Origin: Armatimonadota bacterium
Lineage (GTDB): Bacteria > Sysuimicrobiota > Sysuimicrobiia > Sysuimicrobiales > Sysuimicrobiaceae
Direction of reading: 5' to 3'
Length of the DNA: 64,000 nucleotides
Assembly (NCBI GenBank): GCA_031460175.1
Contig: JAVKGW010000001.1
Span: 1 to 64,000, forward strand
Shown: one piece after another, positions 324 to 8,711 of the stretch
How positions within the stretch are numbered: the stretch's first letter is position 1
Layout of the letters: each line of letters opens with the position of its first letter
Notes under the pieces: model-generated
Database searches by the model: none
Told to the model about the DNA's origin: nothing
Seen by the model: only the letters and a program-made list of their open reading frames with translations
Translations under genes and position numbers: made by a program

Positions 324-695
324 TCACTCAGGACCCGCCCGTCGCACCGCGTCGGCCAGTTCGATGAGCACGTTGGGCTCGCTTCCCACCACCCAGGCGT
401 CGTGGCCCGGCGCTATGATGGCCACGTCCCCGGGCCCGAACTCCATCTCCGTGCCATCCCGCATCCGAATCCGCTGACGGCCCGAAAGGAAAATCTTCAC
501 ATGAAACCGCTCGCAGAACTCCCCGCCTACCACGGGCCTGACATGCTCGGACCACTTCCAGCCCGGTTCCAGCGTCTCCCGGTAGAAGGTCAGCCCGCCC
601 ACGGTGACGACGTCAATGCGCCCCTTCTCGAACGGCCGGCGTGTTTCGTCGGCAGTATCAAAACGCTCGCACCTCCCATGCGGAACCTCACTCAC
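324..695 (-). CDS. Small cupin-domain protein A
   Basis: A 123-residue single-domain cupin (beta-barrel) protein, last complete gene of the sigma/methyltransferase operon. It shares blocks with the next cupin upstream: PGWKWSEHVRPVVG, a central LSG turn, RMRDGTE and GPGDVAIIAPGHDAW. The two look like an old tandem duplication. I chose GTG at 695, 14 nt after the preceding stop at 710; the frame is open further upstream but would overlap the neighbour heavily, and no clear ribosome binding site supports either start. Small cupins commonly bind a metal or small ligand; the substrate here is unknown. The neighbourhood suggests a role in metal, metalloid or oxidant stress, which is inference only. 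Confidence 0.75.
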   Translation of the reverse strand: MSEVPHGRCERFDTADETRRPFEKGRIDVVTVGGLTFYRETLEPGWKWSEHVRPVVGGEFCERFHVKIFLSGRQRIRMRDGTEMEFGPGDVAIIAPGHDAWVVGSEPNVLIELADAVRRAGPE

Positions 696-709
696 ACGGT
701 ATGCGGGGT

Positions 710-1045
710 TCAGTGCAGGATCTCGATATACACCAGAGGCTCGCTTCCCGCGTTCCAACCATCATGACCGGCAGGTATGGCCACCACATCGCCCGCTCCA
801 AAGCTCACTTCCGTTCCGTCGTTCATCCGGGCACGACCCTTCCCCGAAAGGATGTACATGAGGTGGTCCTTCTCGCAGCTTTCAGTTCCCACCACAGGCT
901 TCAGGTGTTTCGACCATTGCCAGCCGGGCTCGACCGTGATCCGCTGGATCTTCAGTCCCCGGACCGTCACACTCTGAACCTTCGCCTTTTCAGGCGTCTG
1001 CGTCTCGTCTGGCTGGTCCAGACTCTTCTTCTCCACCGCCGCCAT
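710..1045 (-). CDS. Small cupin-domain protein B
   Basis: A 111-residue cupin protein starting at ATG 1045 behind a strong GGGAGGTG ribosome binding site. The barrel motifs are visible: PGWQWSKHLKPVVG, then DHLMYILSGKGRARM, then FGAGDVVAIPAGHDGW. It is the closer of two tandem cupins to the UGA-containing methyltransferase, whose stop lies 44 nt upstream. It is paralogous to the downstream cupin (324-695), which carries a longer N-terminal part. Function is unknown; position in an ECF-sigma operon with a methyltransferase suggests ligand sensing or sequestration in the same stress response. Confidence 0.85.
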   Translation of the reverse strand: MAAVEKKSLDQPDETQTPEKAKVQSVTVRGLKIQRITVEPGWQWSKHLKPVVGTESCEKDHLMYILSGKGRARMNDGTEVSFGAGDVVAIPAGHDGWNAGSEPLVYIEILH

Positions 1046-1089: not shown

Positions 1090-1911
1090 TCAAGGCTTCC
1101 GTGCGGAGAAGATCACGGACCGGGCCACCGTCGCCTGCCGTTCCGGCGGAATGAGCCGGCGCATCAGGGCAATCAGCTCCGGCGTGAACAGCGGGTACTG
1201 TTCGCACTCGTCCACCCCGAAGGGCAGCTCCTCTCCCCGCTGGATGTCCACAAACCCGACCTTCTGCACTTTGCTGGCGAAGACACGCTCCGCCAAAGCC
1301 CCCGAGAGTCAACCGGCCCAGGCAGCGGCGCTCATCAGGATCTCCGGGGGGAGGTCCTCGTCCACCACAATGTCCGCCACCACCATGCGCCCGCCCGGCC
1401 GCAGGACCCGGTAGATCTCCGCGAAGGCCCGGGACTTGCGGGGCGAGAGGTTGATCACCCCGTTGCTGAGGACCACGTCCACGCTCGCCTCGGGCAGGGG
1501 GATGGCCTCCATCTCCCCCAGCATCCACTCGACGTTGGCCACGCCGGCCTCCGCGGCGTGGCGCGCCGCCACCTCCAGCATCTCCGGCAGCATGTCCAGG
1601 CCGATGCTCCTGCCGCCGGGCGCCACCGCATGGGCCGCCAGGATGGTGTCGATGCCCCCACCGCACCCCAGGTCCAGGACCACCTCTCCTGGCTGCAGGC
1701 CTGCGGCGCGTACCGGGTTCCCCACCCCGAGGGCCTGCTCCACCGCGCCGCGGGGCAGCCGGGCCAGCTGCTCCGGGTCGTACAGCCGCTCGGCCACGCC
1801 CGTGGTCGTCCCGACTACCGCCCGGTAAGCCTCGCGCACCAGCCCCTTGATCGTCTCCTGGCCCAGCAGGTCCTCGGGCGGTTGTGCACCCGCGTGTGCG
1901 TGCTCCCTCAT
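1090..1911 (-). CDS. ArsM/UbiE-like SAM methyltransferase, probable selenoprotein (in-frame UGA)
   Basis: Reads as 273 residues if the TGA at 1311-1309 (codon 201) is selenocysteine. N-terminal part: Rossmann SAM-binding motif VLDLGCGGGIDT near residue 79, then NGVINLSPRKS and a VLRPGGRMVVADIV strand, as in arsenite methyltransferase relatives. The frame reaches WAG, then UGA, then continues LSGAL without other damage for 72 codons to GVDECEQYPLFTPE and a normal C-terminus. Relatives typically carry Cys in this WAG-C-GAL position. A hairpin of SECIS shape starts 14 nt after the UGA. The usual SNC motif is SNG here and N-terminal Cys residues are missing, so arsenite need not be the substrate. 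The start ATG 1911 overlaps the anti-sigma stop (ATGA). The alternative is a nonsense-mutated pseudogene. Confidence 0.8.
1276..1294 (-). promoter_or_regulatory. Candidate bacterial SECIS hairpin after the in-frame UGA
   Basis: Fourteen nt after the UGA, GGCGGAG pairs with CTTCGCC (7 bp, one G-U) around a CGTGT loop. The loop begins 21 nt from the UGA and has a G in its first two bases, which fits the described bacterial SECIS geometry (short upper stem, loop about 16-37 nt from UGA, G at the loop start). An outer CTTT/AAAG pairing can extend it with a bulge. Found by eye, not by folding software. Confidence 0.6.
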
Positions 1912-2147
1912 GCCCCCCCTCCCAACTGGCGGATGAAGTCCTCCAGCTTCGCCCGGGTCTCTGTGGGCAGCTCCACAGCCGCGCCCGGCCGCTGCAACAG
2001 CGCCCGCACGTGACGCGCGAACTCCAGCTCCCCGCAACAGTGCCTGCACAACCCCAGGTGCTCCTCCAGCTCCTGTTCCTGCAAACGCTCCAGGTTGCGG
2101 TCCAGGTACGCCCACAGGCGCGCCACGGCTTCCCGGCAACTGATCAT
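1908..2147 (-). CDS. Zinc-binding anti-sigma factor (zf-HC2 type)
   Basis: A 79-residue protein with the putative-zinc-finger anti-sigma pattern: an early Cys (MISCREAVARLWAYLD) followed by HLGLCRHC, giving the H-x3-C-x2-C ligands. Such proteins hold a cognate ECF sigma inactive and release it on oxidation or metal stress. It is coupled at both ends by ATGA overlaps: its start overlaps the ECF sigma stop at 2144-2147, and its stop overlaps the methyltransferase start at 1908-1911. There is no membrane segment, so it should be a soluble cytoplasmic sensor. Partner assignment is from position and is very likely. Confidence 0.88.
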   Translation of the reverse strand: MISCREAVARLWAYLDRNLERLQEQELEEHLGLCRHCCGELEFARHVRALLQRPGAAVELPTETRAKLEDFIRQLGGGA

Positions 2148-2728
2148 CTCCCGACTGCCCCCCGGTCAATGAGGTGGTGGCTCACTGCGTGCTCCCACAG
2201 CTCCCGTTCCAGCTGCTTCCGTCCCCGGTGCAGCCAGCTGAGTACCGTCCCCACAGGCCGGCCTGTGAATTCGCCGATCTCCCGCGCCGTGAAGCCGTAC
2301 ACATACGCCAGGATGACCGCGACCCGGTGCTGCGGGGCCAGACCCTGCAGGACCTCCAGGATCCGCGCGTCGTCGAACAGCTCCAGGAAGTCCAGGTGCA
2401 CCCGGTCGGAGTAGGGGAACGGGTCTTCCTCGGCGATCTTGTCAAACAGGTCGAAGTCTTCCTCCACCGAACGGTGCAGGGCGTCGTTCAGCTCCATCCG
2501 AACCCGGTCGTAGAAGGCGCTGGTGAGCACCCGGGTGAGCCACCGGCGGGGGTGCTCCCGGTCCCTCAGGCTCCTGAACGCACGGAAGGCCCGAAGTAGG
2601 GCGTCCTGAAGGAGGTCTTCAGCAGCGGTGCGGTTCCCGCACAACCGGAGGGCTACCCCGTAGAGGTAGTCCAGGTGGGGCCGGACGCACTCCTCGTAGC
2701 CCAAGCCCGGTCCTGCCGCCTCCGCCAT
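2144..2728 (-). CDS. ECF-type RNA polymerase sigma factor
   Basis: A 194-residue sigma-70 family ECF factor. Region 2 is visible as YLYGVALRLCGNRTAAEDLLQ followed by DALLRAFRAFRSL, and region 4 as LAPQHRVAVILAYVYGF then TAREIGEFTGRPVGTVLSWL with the helix-turn-helix. The start is ATG 2728; upstream frame is open but has the remnant of an OsmC gene, not sigma sequence. The next gene is its presumed zinc anti-sigma (ATGA overlap), followed by the UGA-containing methyltransferase and two cupins. It probably activates its own operon; a clear ECF promoter was not identified by eye. Confidence 0.92.
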   Translation of the reverse strand: MAEAAGPGLGYEECVRPHLDYLYGVALRLCGNRTAAEDLLQDALLRAFRAFRSLRDREHPRRWLTRVLTSAFYDRVRMELNDALHRSVEEDFDLFDKIAEEDPFPYSDRVHLDFLELFDDARILEVLQGLAPQHRVAVILAYVYGFTAREIGEFTGRPVGTVLSWLHRGRKQLERELWEHAVSHHLIDRGAVGR

Positions 2729-3009: not shown

Positions 3010-3807
3010 CTACAATTCCAGAAGTCGCACGCTGGGCGTGCCGGCCAGAAGGGCGATGGCCCACACCATCAGGACCAAGCCCACAGGCCTGCTCACCCGC
3101 CGCCCCCAGGGGGTGGCCCGCTCGGCCGCCATCACCGCTCCCAGGGCCAGCATCCACCCCAGGTGGCCGACTCCCGCAGCGAACATCACCAGCATGAGGA
3201 CCCAGCAACACCCGACACACCACTCCCCGTGGCGGACTCCCAGGGCCATCGCCTCGCGCATCGGCCGGAAGCCCCGCCAGTGGCTGGCGATCTGGGTGTA
3301 GGGCGACCGACACTGCGTCAGGCACCGGTCCTTCAGGGAAGTGAACTGGTACGCGCCCGCCGTGAGCAACACGGCGGGATACACGAACCCTCCCATCCCA
3401 GGGACGCGATCGATCAGGGCGTGGACCAGAAGGTCACCGACGAAAGCGGCCACACCGAACCCCGCCCACACGAGCAGGTACCCTGCGACCAGGCCGGCCA
3501 CGAGGCGCCCATGTCCGGCTCGCTCCCGGACGAGGATCCCAAACAGGCGCACCAGCGGCAGGCTCCCGGGAAGCATCATCGCGACCGTCATGAGCGTCCA
3601 GGCGACAACGAAGATCCCCAGGTGGATCAACAGCTGCACCGAGGCTTCGCCGCCCCCTCGGTGGCCCAGCCAGGCCGCGTGGGGCGACGCGCCCCAGACC
3701 CCGAGGATCCCCCACGCCGACGCGATCAGAGCGGCCACGGCACCGCCGTACCAGAGGCGATCTTGCGAGGTCCGAGGCGTGGCCAGCATCGGCGGTTGCT
3801 CTCTCAC
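3010..3807 (-). CDS. DUF2182 predicted metal-binding membrane protein
   Basis: About 265 residues with roughly seven hydrophobic segments, among them WTLMTVAMMLPGSLPLVRLF and WCVGCCWVLMLVMFAAGVGH. The pattern TVAMMLPG, SLKDRCLTQCRSP and GxxxGxWCVGCC is characteristic of the DUF2182 family. Cys and His/Met residues in these motifs suggest metal handling at the membrane, but no activity is known to me. A GTG start at 3807 overlaps the DUF1326 stop (GTGA); ATG 3789 is an alternative giving 259 residues. DUF1326 and DUF2182 proteins are often neighbours, so they probably act together. Confidence 0.88.
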   Translation of the reverse strand: MREQPPMLATPRTSQDRLWYGGAVAALIASAWGILGVWGASPHAAWLGHRGGGEASVQLLIHLGIFVVAWTLMTVAMMLPGSLPLVRLFGILVRERAGHGRLVAGLVAGYLLVWAGFGVAAFVGDLLVHALIDRVPGMGGFVYPAVLLTAGAYQFTSLKDRCLTQCRSPYTQIASHWRGFRPMREAMALGVRHGEWCVGCCWVLMLVMFAAGVGHLGWMLALGAVMAAERATPWGRRVSRPVGLVLMVWAIALLAGTPSVRLLEL

Positions 3808-4415
3808 GCGGTGAACCGGAAGCTTCCCAGGATGGCGTTGCGTCCGCTGAACTCCCACCCGATGCGGTGCTGCGGAATGCGGGCCCTCAGCATTGGAGCC
3901 TTGCCCACAATGGCCGGCGAGCCCGGAATGGTGCTGAAGACGCTGTCCACCAGCGAGGTGGGTCGGCCCTGGAGGTCGGTGAGGGGCTGCATCTCCCCGG
4001 CTACCGCGTCGCCCACCCGGATGTGCCCGCGTCCCTCGGTCATGGCGAACTCGATGGGCACGTCATACACGCCGAGCACCTCGCCCACCAACGTCGCCAG
4101 GTCCGCGAGGGGGCCACCCAGCTCTCCGGTATGGGCGGCCAGAATGGCCTCCTTCTGGCGGGGGCTGGCTTTGCTGTCCACGAACGCCACGACCTTCCAC
4201 CCGCCCTTGAGCACGTTGCCGGGGATGTGGACCGCCAGGGCCAGGGTCAAGCCGGACACGTCGACCCCGTCGATCTCTCCCCGCTCATAGTGATAGGCCA
4301 CCAATCCGTCGCACTCGCCCCCGTCCGGATCCTCGCCCACCCAGCACGGGCACACCGCCGCGCAGGAACAGGCCTCCAGCAACTTGCCCTCGATCGCGTA
4401 CCCCACTTCCCTCAC
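3804..4415 (-). CDS. DUF1326 domain protein
   Basis: A 203-residue protein beginning with a Cys-rich motif (LEACSCAAVCPCWVG, residues 13-27), typical of DUF1326, followed by a beta-rich domain ending SGRNAILGSFRFTA. The short CxxxCxC motif looks like a metal or thiol site; the family has no established biochemical function that I know. It starts at GTG 4415 and is coupled to DUF2182 by a GTGA overlap. A nearly identical middle segment (residues 42-98) recurs at 1-171. It is probably part of the metal/oxidant island together with OsmC and the copper ATPase. Confidence 0.88.
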   Translation of the reverse strand: MREVGYAIEGKLLEACSCAAVCPCWVGEDPDGGECDGLVAYHYERGEIDGVDVSGLTLALAVHIPGNVLKGGWKVVAFVDSKASPRQKEAILAAHTGELGGPLADLATLVGEVLGVYDVPIEFAMTEGRGHIRVGDAVAGEMQPLTDLQGRPTSLVDSVFSTIPGSPAIVGKAPMLRARIPQHRIGWEFSGRNAILGSFRFTA

Positions 4416-4536
4416 CCCCTACGTCCAATTTGAGGTACGACCTGCGCCGTCCCAGCTAGTTTCCCTGCCGAATCGGGGAACTGCCAGCCCAACGCCCTTC
4501 AGAAGTACCGTCCCGACGAGGTTAGTTGCCCTCGAT

Positions 4537-4939
4537 TTACCCGAGCGACTCCGCCAGCTGGAAGACGGTCAATCCGGTCCCGCCCGGCAGGATCTGGCGG
4601 AACGGGCCGGGTGTTCCCCCCGCCGAGAAGTCCGTGCCGGGGATGCTGAGCGTGTAGCCTTCGATCTCCCCGGTCTGCAGTCCGGCCGGAGGCAGGTTGC
4701 AGTAGATGGTCAGCACGCCCCGCGGAAGACTGCCGGAGATGGACGAAGCCGATGGATGTCGATGACGAACTCCCCAATCCCGGCCGCCGCACCACCGTAG
4801 GTGCCGATCTCCCGGTAGCTCGACAGCAGCCTGGCCTTCCACGTCCCGGACGCCACGACAGGGAACGGCGCGCTGGCAGCCGGCTGAAAGTGGAAGAAGC
4901 TCCCGCCGCCTTCCTCAGAAACTCCCGTCGATCCATCAT
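4537..4939 (-). pseudogene. Frameshifted Tat-signal exported protein gene
   Basis: ATG 4939 begins a twin-arginine-like leader MMDRREFLRKAAGAS. Sequence resembling a beta-rich exported protein then continues in a second frame (FFHFQPAASAPFPVV to GGAAAGIGEFVIDI) and later in a third (GVLTIYCNLPPAGLQTGEIE to GTGLTVFQLAESLG, stop at 4537). At least two frameshifts are needed to join the parts, so the gene is broken in this sequence. I do not recognise the family. It lies between osmC and DUF1326 in the metal island, whose other broken genes fit local decay. Confidence 0.6.
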
Positions 4940-5139
4940 CCCCCTCACCCCCATCCGGGCCATCGAGGTCGGCGTGTCGCCAGGCCCCTTCCCCGAGCGG
5001 TGCATCAACGCACGCGCATCCGGCCCAGCCTCACGAAGCTTGCGTCGTCCCAGGGCCTTCGCAAACGCCGCGACCTTCACGCTCGAGGCCACTCGGTCGT
5101 AATCAGCCGCCACCTCCGCCTCCCGGGCTCCCTCGGCGC
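4940..5139 (-). other. Open frame of unknown status after osmC
   Basis: A GTG at 5143 overlaps the osmC stop (GTGA) and opens a frame that runs, without a stop, into the MMDRREF leader of the broken gene. Its product would be hydrophilic and basic (for example VKVAAFAKALGRRKL). It could be an N-terminal extension, a separate small gene whose end was lost, or non-coding. I do not recognise it. Confidence 0.3.
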
Positions 5140-5700
5140 TCACGGCTCCAGCCTTACCGTCACCGGAACCGCATTCCGGAGGATGTCCAGCACCGGCGAG
5201 GTCTTCTGGACGTACTCGCACAGCGCCACGATCTCGTCCCGGGGCGCGTCCGCCTTCACGCGGTACGCCACCCGGATTCCCTGGTACCCGGGCCGCACTT
5301 GGTCCGATAGCCCCAGGAAGCCGTGGAGGTCCACGTCTCCGTCCAGCGTGAACTCCAGGCTGTCCACCCGGATGCCTCGGGCGGCCGCGTTGTAGACGAA
5401 CCCCACCGCAAGGCAGGACGCCAGGGCGTGCAGCACGGCTTCCACCGCGTTGGGCGCCGCGTTCGTGCCGAGCAGCACGGGCGGTTCATCCCCTTCCAGG
5501 ACGAAGGGCTCGGTACGCGAGGTGTCCTCCTGCCCGGCCCCGTAGAACCCCTGGACCTTGGTCCGGGATCGGCCGCCGCCCACCCACTCGCTGGTCGCGC
5601 GGAACGTGAACCGTGCAAGGCCCGGGTTCGCCTTGATGGCCTCCACGGTCTCCACCAGCTGGCCCACATCGACCCCGTTCAGGCTCTTCTTGCCCTCCAC
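5140..5700 (-). CDS. OsmC family peroxiredoxin-like protein
   Basis: About 186 residues. OsmC/Ohr proteins are thiol peroxidases that reduce organic hydroperoxides using two Cys. Visible motifs are LLGTNAAPNAVEAVLHALASC, with the first catalytic Cys in the ASC turn, and EIVALCEYVQKTSPVLDIL with the second Cys. The GTG at 5700 is preferred because GGGGAGG lies just upstream; GTG 5709 is possible. It follows the MerR regulator in the copper ATPase operon, so it probably protects against metal-driven oxidation. A decayed paralogue lies at 2885-3009. Confidence 0.9.
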   Translation of the reverse strand: MEGKKSLNGVDVGQLVETVEAIKANPGLARFTFRATSEWVGGGRSRTKVQGFYGAGQEDTSRTEPFVLEGDEPPVLLGTNAAPNAVEAVLHALASCLAVGFVYNAAARGIRVDSLEFTLDGDVDLHGFLGLSDQVRPGYQGIRVAYRVKADAPRDEIVALCEYVQKTSPVLDILRNAVPVTVRLEP

Positions 5701-5735
5701 GACCCCCACCTCCCCTTTCCTCTCGTATCCGGCTC

Positions 5736-6242
5736 CTACGGGAAAGGACGACCTCCGCTCCCCGCTTTATTGCGGCCAGCGGGAACGTGGGGCCTCCGCG
5801 GCTCTACCCGGTCCCGCGGTCCCTCAAGGATCGGGCAGACGCACGGGATGCCGCTCGTCCGACGCCCGGCCCGCCGCCGCAGGCGCCGGAGCTCGTCCTG
5901 CAACGCCTGCAGCGCCTGTAGCCGGGCTTCCACCTCTCGCAGCTTCCGCTCGACCTGGCGGCGGACGTGCTCGCAGGGGACCTGCCCTCGGTCCTTCAGC
6001 TCCACGACTTCCCGCATCTCGCGCAGCGTGAACCCTGCCCGTTTTGCGCGCAGCACGAACCGCAACCGCTCCCGGTCCGTCTCTACGTACACCCGGTACC
6101 CGGAGGGCGTCCTATGGGGTCGAAGCAGGCCCACCGCCTCGTAGTACCGCAGGGTCCTCGGGTTGAGCCCGAACTCCCGGGCCAGCTCGCCGATGCGCAC
6201 TCCGCTCTCCGCCTGGGGAACCCCGACTTCCTTCTGGTTCAT
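5736..6242 (-). CDS. MerR family heavy-metal-responsive regulator
   Basis: A 168-residue MerR-type activator. The N-terminal winged helix reads [20 protein letters not shown], then [16 protein letters not shown]. The dimerisation helix runs from about residue 85, and likely metal ligands are Cys in GQVPCEHV and the C-terminal [11 protein letters not shown], as in metal-sensing members. The start ATG 6242 overlaps the ATPase stop (ATGA) and has GGAGGG upstream. A CueR-like operator sits in the promoter at 8487-8518 that drives this operon, so it probably autoregulates and responds to copper or a related ion. Which metal is not provable from sequence. Confidence 0.9.
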
Positions 6243-8473
6243 CCCGCCCCTCCTGCCCCGACATCCGACGTCCCCACCGCTGCGACGCGTGGAGTCACCC
6301 TCCCCGCCAGGGATCGGACCAGCACCAGGCTCACGCTCGTCGCCATGGCCAGCATCGCCCACACCGGCCTGACGAGCCCGGACACCGACGCCAACACGCC
6401 CACTCCGTTGAACGCCAGGGCCAGGACCACGTTCTGCACGGTCAGGTGGTAGCTGCGCCCCGCGAGCTCTAGCGCTTCCACCACAGCTCCCAGCCGGTCC
6501 CCCACCAGCACCACGTCCGCGCTCTCCACCGCCACGTCGGCTCCCGCGCCGACGGCGATCCCCACGTCCGCCTGCATGAGGGCCGGGGCGTCGTTGATCC
6601 CGTCGCCCACCATGGCGACCCGCCGGCCTGCCCGCTGCAGCGCCCGGACGACCCCCGCCTTCTGCCCCGGGAGCACCTCGCTCAACACCTCCGGGATGCC
6701 CGCCTCCTGTGCCACGGCCCGCGCGGTGCGGTGGTCATCGCCGGTGAGGAGGACCACCCGCAGGCCCCTCCTGCGCAGATCCGCGACGGTGCCCACGGCG
6801 TCGGGCTTGAGCCGGTCCGCGACCCCCAGTACCGCGACCGCCTGGCCGTCGACGGCCAGGAGCACCGCGGTCCAGCCCACCTCCCGAAACTCGGCGGCCG
6901 CGGCCCGAAGCGGGGAAGGATCGACCCCGCCTTCCACGAGGAACTGCTCGGTGCCCACCAGCACCCGATGTCCCCTGACCTTCGCCGCCACCCCGCGGCC
7001 GGGGTGGGCGGTGAACTCCTCCGGCTCCAGCAACGGGATCCCCCGCACCTGGGCGCCGGCCACGATGGCCCTGCCCAGCGGGTGCTCGGAGGGCCGCTCC
7101 GCGCTCGCGGCAAGCTGCAACGCATCCTCTTCCGGGATCCCGCGCGTCCAGCATCCCACCAGGTGTGGCCTTCCCTCCGTGAGGGTTCCCGTCTTGTCGA
7201 AGACGAAGGTGTCCACGCGACCGAGGAGCTGAAAGGCTTCCCCGGATCGCATGAGGATCCCGCGTCGGGCCGCCTCCCCGGAGGCCCGCACGATGCCGAG
7301 CGGGGTGGCCATGCCCAGGGCGCACGGGTATCCCATCACGAGCACGGTGAGAGCCGCCAGCACCGCTCGCGCGGCGTCCGGCCTGCCGCCCGCCACGGCC
7401 GCGCCGGCTGTCCACAGCACGAACCCCGCCGCCGCCGCGGCGAACACCCCGGGCACGAACCACAGCAGGACCCGGTCCACGACCCGCAGGACGCCGGGCT
7501 TGAGGGCCCGCGCCTCGGCCACGTGACGCACCACGGACTGCAGGAAGCTCTCCGGCCCAACCCGGGCCACGCGGATCACGAGGCTACCCCACCGGTTCAA
7601 CGACCCGCCCACCACCTCGTCTCCCGGAAGCTTGTCCACGGGGATGGGCTCGCCCGTGAGCAGGCTCTCGTCGACCGCGGAACTGCCTACCACCACCACG
7701 CCGTCGGCGGGGATGCGTTCCCCCGGCCGCACCCGCAGCAAGTCCCCCGGTCGCAGCTGGTCCACGGGCACTTCCTCCTCGGCTCCGTCCGGGCGCAGCC
7801 TCCACGCGGTCTTGGGCGCCAGGCTCAACAGCGCCCGCACGGACTGCGACGCCCGCACGTGGACCAGCACGGACAGGTACCCTCCCACCAGGTGGAACGC
7901 CAGCACGTACACCGTGGCGCCGAAGAACTCGCCCGCAGGGAAGCCCGGGGCGACGAGGCCGGCGGCTCCGCCCACCAGTCCGGCGAGCGCGGCGGATGCG
8001 GCCAGCACGTCCTGGTTGAGGATGCCCCGGCGCAGGGACTGCCAGGCGTTGCGCAGGACCCACCGGGCCGGCCCCAAGGCGGCGAAGCCGGCCAGAACAC
8101 CCATGGCCAGGGCCCGTGCCCGGCTCGGCCCCCACCAGGCGGACGTCAGCATGAGCGCGGAGGCGACCACGAACAGCCCGGCCGCGGTCCATGCGAGGCG
8201 TCGTGCGTGCGCAAGCTCCCGTTCCTCTTCCGCGGATCGGCCCGCCTCGTCGGGTGGGTGGACGGTGAACCCGACCGCCTGAAGGGTGGCGGTGACCGCC
8301 TCCGGGGTCAGGCGGGCGGGGTCGTACTCCACCAGGGCCTCCTGGTGCGCGATGGAGACGTGCACGGACTCGACCCCGGGAAGCTTCAACACCGCCCGGC
8401 GGACGGACTCCACGCACAGGGAACAGTGCATGCCACCCAGCTTCAGGTGCAGCCTGGCCGCGGCCACCGTCAT
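6239..8473 (-). CDS. P1B-type heavy-metal transporting ATPase (copper-type)
   Basis: A 744-residue metal-exporting ATPase. An N-terminal heavy-metal-associated domain has GMHCSLC (Cys17 and Cys20). TGEPIPVDK in the actuator domain, DKTGTLTEG near residue 426, SEHPLGRA and [14 protein letters not shown] are the ATPase signatures. The membrane metal site that is usually CPC reads YPCALG (Tyr382-Cys384), so one of the two usual Cys ligands is replaced. The start ATG 8473 has GAGGAGGTG directly upstream. A MerR-type promoter precedes it and the MerR gene follows with an ATGA overlap. Cu(I) export is likely, with altered selectivity possible. Confidence 0.93.
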
Positions 8474-8486
8474 CACCTCCTCGACC

Positions 8487-8518
8487 AACCTACAACTTCC
8501 AGCGGACTGGAAGGTCAA
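8487..8518 (-). promoter_or_regulatory. CueR/MerR-type promoter-operator of the metal ATPase operon
   Basis: Minus strand: -35 TTGACC (8518-8513), 20-bp spacer with the dyad CTTCCAG-TCCG-CTGGAAG, -10 TAGGTT (8492-8487). A long 19-20 bp spacer filled by a dyad is the hallmark of MerR-family activated promoters, and TTGACCTTCC with GCTGGAAG closely resembles CueR sites at copA promoters. The transcript leader would be very short, with the ribosome binding site almost at the 5' end. Confidence 0.8.
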
Positions 8519-8533
8519 GCCGATCCGCCTCGC

Positions 8534-8554
8534 CGAACGGCCACGGGCCGTTCG
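8534..8554. repeat. Perfect inverted repeat between divergent genes
   Basis: CGAACGGCC, ACG, GGCCGTTCG: a 9-bp perfect palindrome with a 3-nt centre, just upstream of the copA-type promoter and 158 nt before the MFS gene. There is no T-run, so it is not a typical terminator; it may be an operator. The rest of 8519-8711 shows nothing I can support. Confidence 0.45.
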
Positions 8555-8711
8555 CAGCAGCCCCCGGCGCCTTCCCTGCTCCACCTGTGGCATCCTAAGG
8601 GGTGGGCCACGGCATCGCTTGGAAGACTGCCAGCGTCGGTAGGGGCTTTTCGTTCTGAACCATGCGGACGGTTACGTTCACGCTTGCGGGCCAGGACCTG
8701 GCGGAAGGCGT

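Follow-up and report, generated by a model that had tools for sequence, protein, structure and literature searches.

A predicted selenocysteine-containing, ArsM-like methyltransferase encoded behind a sigma/anti-sigma pair in a Sysuimicrobiota genome

The window, by which we mean the whole 64,000-nucleotide stretch of DNA analysed here, carries near its start a series of reverse-strand genes, among them one for an ArsM-like methyltransferase whose reading frame is crossed by a UGA codon. The features that concern us are the following.

324-695, minus strand: small cupin protein B, its start placed by comparison with homologues
710-1045, minus strand: small cupin protein A, directly downstream of the methyltransferase
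1090-1911, minus strand: predicted selenocysteine (Sec)-containing ArsM-like SAM methyltransferase, 273 amino acids, assigned from its frame and from profile, PDB and fold matches
1274-1296, minus strand: bacterial SECIS-like hairpin with a stem of 9 bp and a loop of 5 nt (CGUGU, 1287-1283)
1309-1311, minus strand: in-frame UGA, codon 201, equivalent to Cys224 of CmArsM, in the motif U-L-S-G (UxxG)
1908-2147, minus strand: zf-HC2 / RsrA-like zinc anti-sigma factor (H-x3-C-x2-C)
2144-2728, minus strand: ECF sigma-70 family factor (SigH/SigR-like), overlapping the anti-sigma start by 4 nt
3010-3789, minus strand: PpoB2 family membrane protein, also near the methyltransferase operon in loci L068 and L071
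3804-4415, minus strand: DUF1326 protein, likewise close to that operon in L068 and L071
5140-5709, minus strand: OsmC-like protein in its Cys form, encoded close to the methyltransferase at five related loci

The methyltransferase frame, read from 1911 to 1090, translates into 273 residues with a single in-frame UGA at 1311-1309, past which 72 sense codons follow before the frame closes with a UGA stop at 1092-1090; translation thus bears out the interrupted frame described in an earlier note made from the letters alone. Apart from the UGA at codon 201 the frame is intact and free of lesions, and standard annotation would miscall its product as a protein of 200 residues. Genome-wide reassignment of UGA is unlikely because the gene itself ends in UGA, and we rejected it on this ground and because the codon-201 column is otherwise one of Cys.

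Pfam and NCBIfam profiles identify the product as a SAM methyltransferase with arsenite methyltransferase as the nearest type, and the Rossmann fold and the SAM motif DLGCGGG are those of a class I enzyme. The best NCBIfam match, NF008823 (arsenite methyltransferase), gives 230.7 bits against a cut-off of 263, which leaves the protein outside that family as defined. The best PDB matches, by sequence and by fold, are CmArsM and CrArsM. A full-length AlphaFold2 model based on a 14-row alignment has a pLDDT of 92.6, and its residues 201-273, modelled at about pLDDT 95, add helices and two strands to the domain. When aligned with the PDB sequences, U201 falls on the Cys of the GECLGGAL motif of CmArsM and CrArsM, which counts to Cys224 of CmArsM; V63 and G151 align with Cys72 and Cys174, respectively. 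The placement of the UGA at a conserved Cys, proposed in the earlier note, therefore holds, orthologues having Cys there as well, and so does its remark that the other metalloid-binding Cys residues of ArsM are missing. We considered C236 as a possible second ligand and rejected it, as the relative L028 has W there, the second of the two groups of UGA genes described below (groups i and ii) has L, and the actinobacterial orthologues have V.

A search for methyltransferase relatives in 43 genomes of the phylum returned a UGA at codon 201 in 13 genes from 12 genomes, spread over six families. Among Cys forms the nearest is L024 (80% identical), with TGC at this codon; it is the sole TGC member found in the 43 genomes, and the actinobacterial orthologues from a Saccharothrix MAG and from Jiangella asiatica (59%) have TGC and TGT. 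The exchange between Cys and UGA that was sought in homologues is thus present, and the column holds U or C without exception across the clade alignment. No relatives were found in the viral contigs searched, and the plasmid matches were all under 60% identity and, among the matches listed, mostly annotated as arsenite methyltransferase. We note two irregular entries: the stretch right after the UGA is N-masked in both collections of one genome (L027 and L055), and at the contig end G040:C34 (L072) an ECF fragment 98% identical to that of the window runs straight into residue 140 of the methyltransferase (96%), identities far above expectation for its genus that likely mark a chimera or contamination.

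Downstream of the UGA, dN/dS lies between 0.06 and 0.22 against five orthologues of about 75-83% identity (L022, L023, L024, L025 and L026), not above the upstream value, and it is 0.25 between L025 and L026; the value against L028 is 0.60, diverged pairs running high with few synonymous sites. Judged from the closer pairs, which are the informative ones, the codons beyond the UGA are under purifying selection.

The window's genome, which is 98.9% complete, was searched for selA, selB, selC (tRNA-Sec) and selD, and all four were found: tRNA-Sec at 82 bits, with the anticodon read as tca by ARAGORN, and SelB, SelA and SelD with profile scores of 351, 570 and 373 bits. The tRNA-Sec, SelB and SelA genes adjoin on contig C3 and SelD is on C1; the SelD gene (L016, G000:C1:341633-342556) has an in-frame TGA of its own, and SelD is itself likely to be a selenoprotein. 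Of the 12 UGA genomes, 10 have SelB above the cut-off and 11 have tRNA-Sec; G040 has tRNA-Sec without a SelB above threshold, and G012, 72% complete, yielded neither. Neither was found in G037, the 72% complete genome of the Cys form L024, nor in its genus-mates G038 (95% complete) and G039 (94%). The Cys/Sec exchange would then track loss of the Sec machinery, which is the pattern expected of a change from Sec to Cys, with the proviso that G037 is incomplete.

The SECIS-shaped hairpin claimed earlier is present, with 9 bp in its stem, a G in the first part of its loop and the loop beginning 21 nt past the UGA. About 12% of the Cys codons in the long frames of the window precede a hairpin meeting the same criterion, and for this reason the hairpin counts as support only together with its conservation. 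Folding gave no support of its own, the energy of the UGA-to-hairpin stretches being ordinary for GC-rich sequence (z 0.04 to -0.99) and not significant alone. Group i has eight UGA genes, of which L027 is masked in this stretch; the other seven, and the Cys form L024, all show the consensus GGCGGAG...CUUCG[CU]C, whose 5-nt loop lies 21 nt downstream of the codon; 97% of the pairs are kept and the variation is one-sided only. Two-sided covariation was looked for in group i and none was found, so synonymous-site conservation was used as the measure instead. The five genes of group ii form a different stem, [GA]CGCUUG-CGGAG-CAAG[CU]G[CU], from the same codons; by inspection, the outer stem pair is A and U in L031 but G and C in the other genes. 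Over the hairpin codons, synonymous divergence comes close to the gene minimum in either group; when 9-codon windows are ordered from low to high divergence, the one at +6 takes place 4 of 262 for group i and the one at +4 place 2 of 217 for group ii.

The complete Sec machinery, the 13 conserved UGAs, the Cys/Sec exchange, the selection on conserved coding sequence past the UGA and the conserved hairpin strongly support our main reading, to which we give a probability of about 0.95: the gene would encode a functional selenoprotein in which the UGA at 1311-1309 specifies selenocysteine. The alternative that the UGA is a true stop, either in a decaying pseudogene or in a 200-residue protein made on purpose, might appeal to the standard gene caller, which would terminate there, and to a TTG start at 1296 available for the second part alone; we consider it very improbable, since the UGA is kept in 13 genes with purifying selection past it, the frame has no further lesion, and truncation would remove the final two strands and helices from the fold. 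A one-base sequencing or assembly error, to which the closeness of the gene to the contig start might lend some color, is more improbable still and is in effect refuted by the same UGA in 12 independently assembled genomes.

While the earlier note was right to call the protein a selenoprotein, it was not right to call it a new kind. Arsenite methyltransferase with the motif UxxG is already listed among experimentally verified selenoproteins (PMC13188914 Table 1, citing Fomenko et al. 2007), where it is of PRK11873/NF008823 type with the representative WP_011987699.1; the same source catalogues several multi-Sec ArsM fusions (PMC13188914), and a Sec arsenite methyltransferase has been described in marine metagenomes (PMC2398784). 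The CSP1-3 (Sysuimicrobiota) paper does not mention selenium (PMC11604079). Like the catalogued enzymes, the window's protein is an ArsM-family methyltransferase with Sec in U-x-x-G, here U-L-S-G; what would probably set it apart from them is that its clade has no Cys72/Cys174 and falls below the NF008823 cut-off. It also shares the ArsM-like domain with UxxG of NF041537, NF041536 and NF047649 (ArsM/AhpD, ArsM/DUF2284 and methyltransferase/UXPK-star), whose profiles align over residues 36-231. In those families, however, the domain is fused to a second one and two or three Sec are present, whereas the window's protein has one domain, one Sec and no second Sec domain, and scores far below their cut-offs. 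Compared with CmArsM, CrArsM and AS3MT (PDB 6cx6, 4fr0, 5evj, 8xt7), its best fold matches, it retains only one of three substrate-binding thiol positions, and that one as a selenol.

In ArsM the equivalents of Cys72, Cys174 and Cys224 are conserved (PMC5552862). At these positions every UGA gene has V, L or M, then G, then U, with the first of the three not covered in the fragment L029, while all 31 complete canonical ArsM paralogues examined in the phylum are C-C-C and none has the UGA. In a tree whose root is not established, a branch supported at 100/97 separates the V/L/M-G sequences from the rest, and the UGA was found only within this clade. Of the 12 UGA genomes, 10 encode a separate C-C-C ArsM as well, and a fragment of one lies at a contig end in the genome of the window; the UGA gene would therefore not be the ordinary ArsM of these organisms. 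Read from these alignments, the V/L/M-G-U subfamily would be new within a kind of selenoprotein already known, and its 13 examples carry Sec-ArsM into a little-studied phylum with a natural Cys/Sec exchange.

The anti-sigma gene (1908-2147) overlaps the start of the methyltransferase gene by 4 nt, and the order ECF sigma, anti-sigma, methyltransferase is seen in the window and in nine related loci (L065-L071, L056 and L057). Throughout the window's branch, genes for an ECF sigma and an RsrA-like anti-sigma factor precede that of the methyltransferase, and OsmC, cupins, DUF1326 and PpoB2 recur near the operon; in group ii loci neither the sigma/anti-sigma genes nor the recurring neighbours were seen. 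In the actinobacterial operon of L056, a second ArsM-like methyltransferase (6862-7659) stands right behind the first, likewise with SNG and the single WAAC Cys. The anti-sigma factor keeps the HxxxCxxC motif and scores 51.4 bits with the RsrA profile (TIGR03988), under the cut-off of 62.5. The pair thus resembles SigR-RsrA and other ECF-ZAS pairs in having an ECF sigma followed by a zinc anti-sigma with this motif, and differs from them in the anti-sigma score and in being coupled to a methyltransferase; a literature search for an ECF sigma with arsenite methyltransferase found nothing. We suspect that thiol-reactive stress inactivates the RsrA-like factor, upon which the adjacent ECF sigma would most likely turn the operon on, and we regard such thiol-stress control as rather probable. 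The fixed operon suggests a screen for inducers.

How the protein might work can be pictured from its sequence as follows. The SelB/tRNA-Sec system would decode the UGA as Sec, aided by the hairpin at 1296-1274, and the 273-residue product would be a class I SAM methyltransferase with Sec201 where ArsM has its substrate-binding Cys224. As the partner positions Cys72 and Cys174 are Val and Gly, it is likely that a single selenol, placed beside SAM and serving as ligand or nucleophile, holds a soft, thiol-reactive substrate that the enzyme methylates; with the two Cys gone, it is reasonable to infer a changed substrate. Candidates would be metalloid or metal species, or species already bearing small-molecule thiols, and we put the chance that the substrate is of the soft-metalloid class at about even. 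Retention of one selenol with two Cys lost would make this a clean system for the role of Sec in methyl transfer and for one-ligand substrates.

Two accounts of the substrate deserve to be weighed. In the first, to which we give a little less than an even chance, the single selenol acts on something other than arsenic, such as Sb, Hg, Se or Te species or a small organic electrophile. The loss of two of three As-binding thiols beside an invariant U/C201 and the setting of an RsrA-like anti-sigma operon with OsmC, cupins, DUF1326 and PpoB2 nearby point this way, but no neighbour gene points to a substrate and, under a midpoint root, the clade is nested among ArsM sequences. In the second, the protein is a canonical arsenite methyltransferase acting on As(III), and Sec merely improves the chemistry of Cys224. 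The nearest folds are indeed As(III) methyltransferases, NF008823 tops the NCBIfam matches and Sec-ArsM with UxxG is a listed kind; yet the score stays under the family cut-off, every relative in the clade has V/L/M and G in place of the As-binding Cys72 and Cys174, and a separate C-C-C ArsM is encoded in most of the UGA genomes, so that we think this account unlikely. A more far-reaching reading, which we hold to be somewhat less likely than not, would be that the V/L/M-G-U proteins are a distinct selenoenzyme subfamily that methylates a non-arsenic soft substrate via one selenol, and that in one branch a thiol-stress sigma/anti-sigma pair of its own induces the enzyme; V-G-C versions occur in Actinomycetota with the same regulators.

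Lastly, a few observations on the neighbourhood may be recorded. The OsmC-like protein (5140-5709) and the HMA domain of a metal ATPase (6239-8593) match the (seleno)protein models NF041052 and NF041115 below their cut-offs, in the Cys form. Between DUF1326 and OsmC, the stretch 4499-5221 opens with what resembles a Tat signal, MDRREFLRKAAGA, and pieces of it match L066 in different frames; it is possibly a frameshifted or misread gene. A 171-nt direct repeat, 99% identical, occupies 1-171 and 4123-4293, and the contig opens within another copy of the DUF1326 gene; this contig end is therefore probably an assembly edge broken at the repeat.
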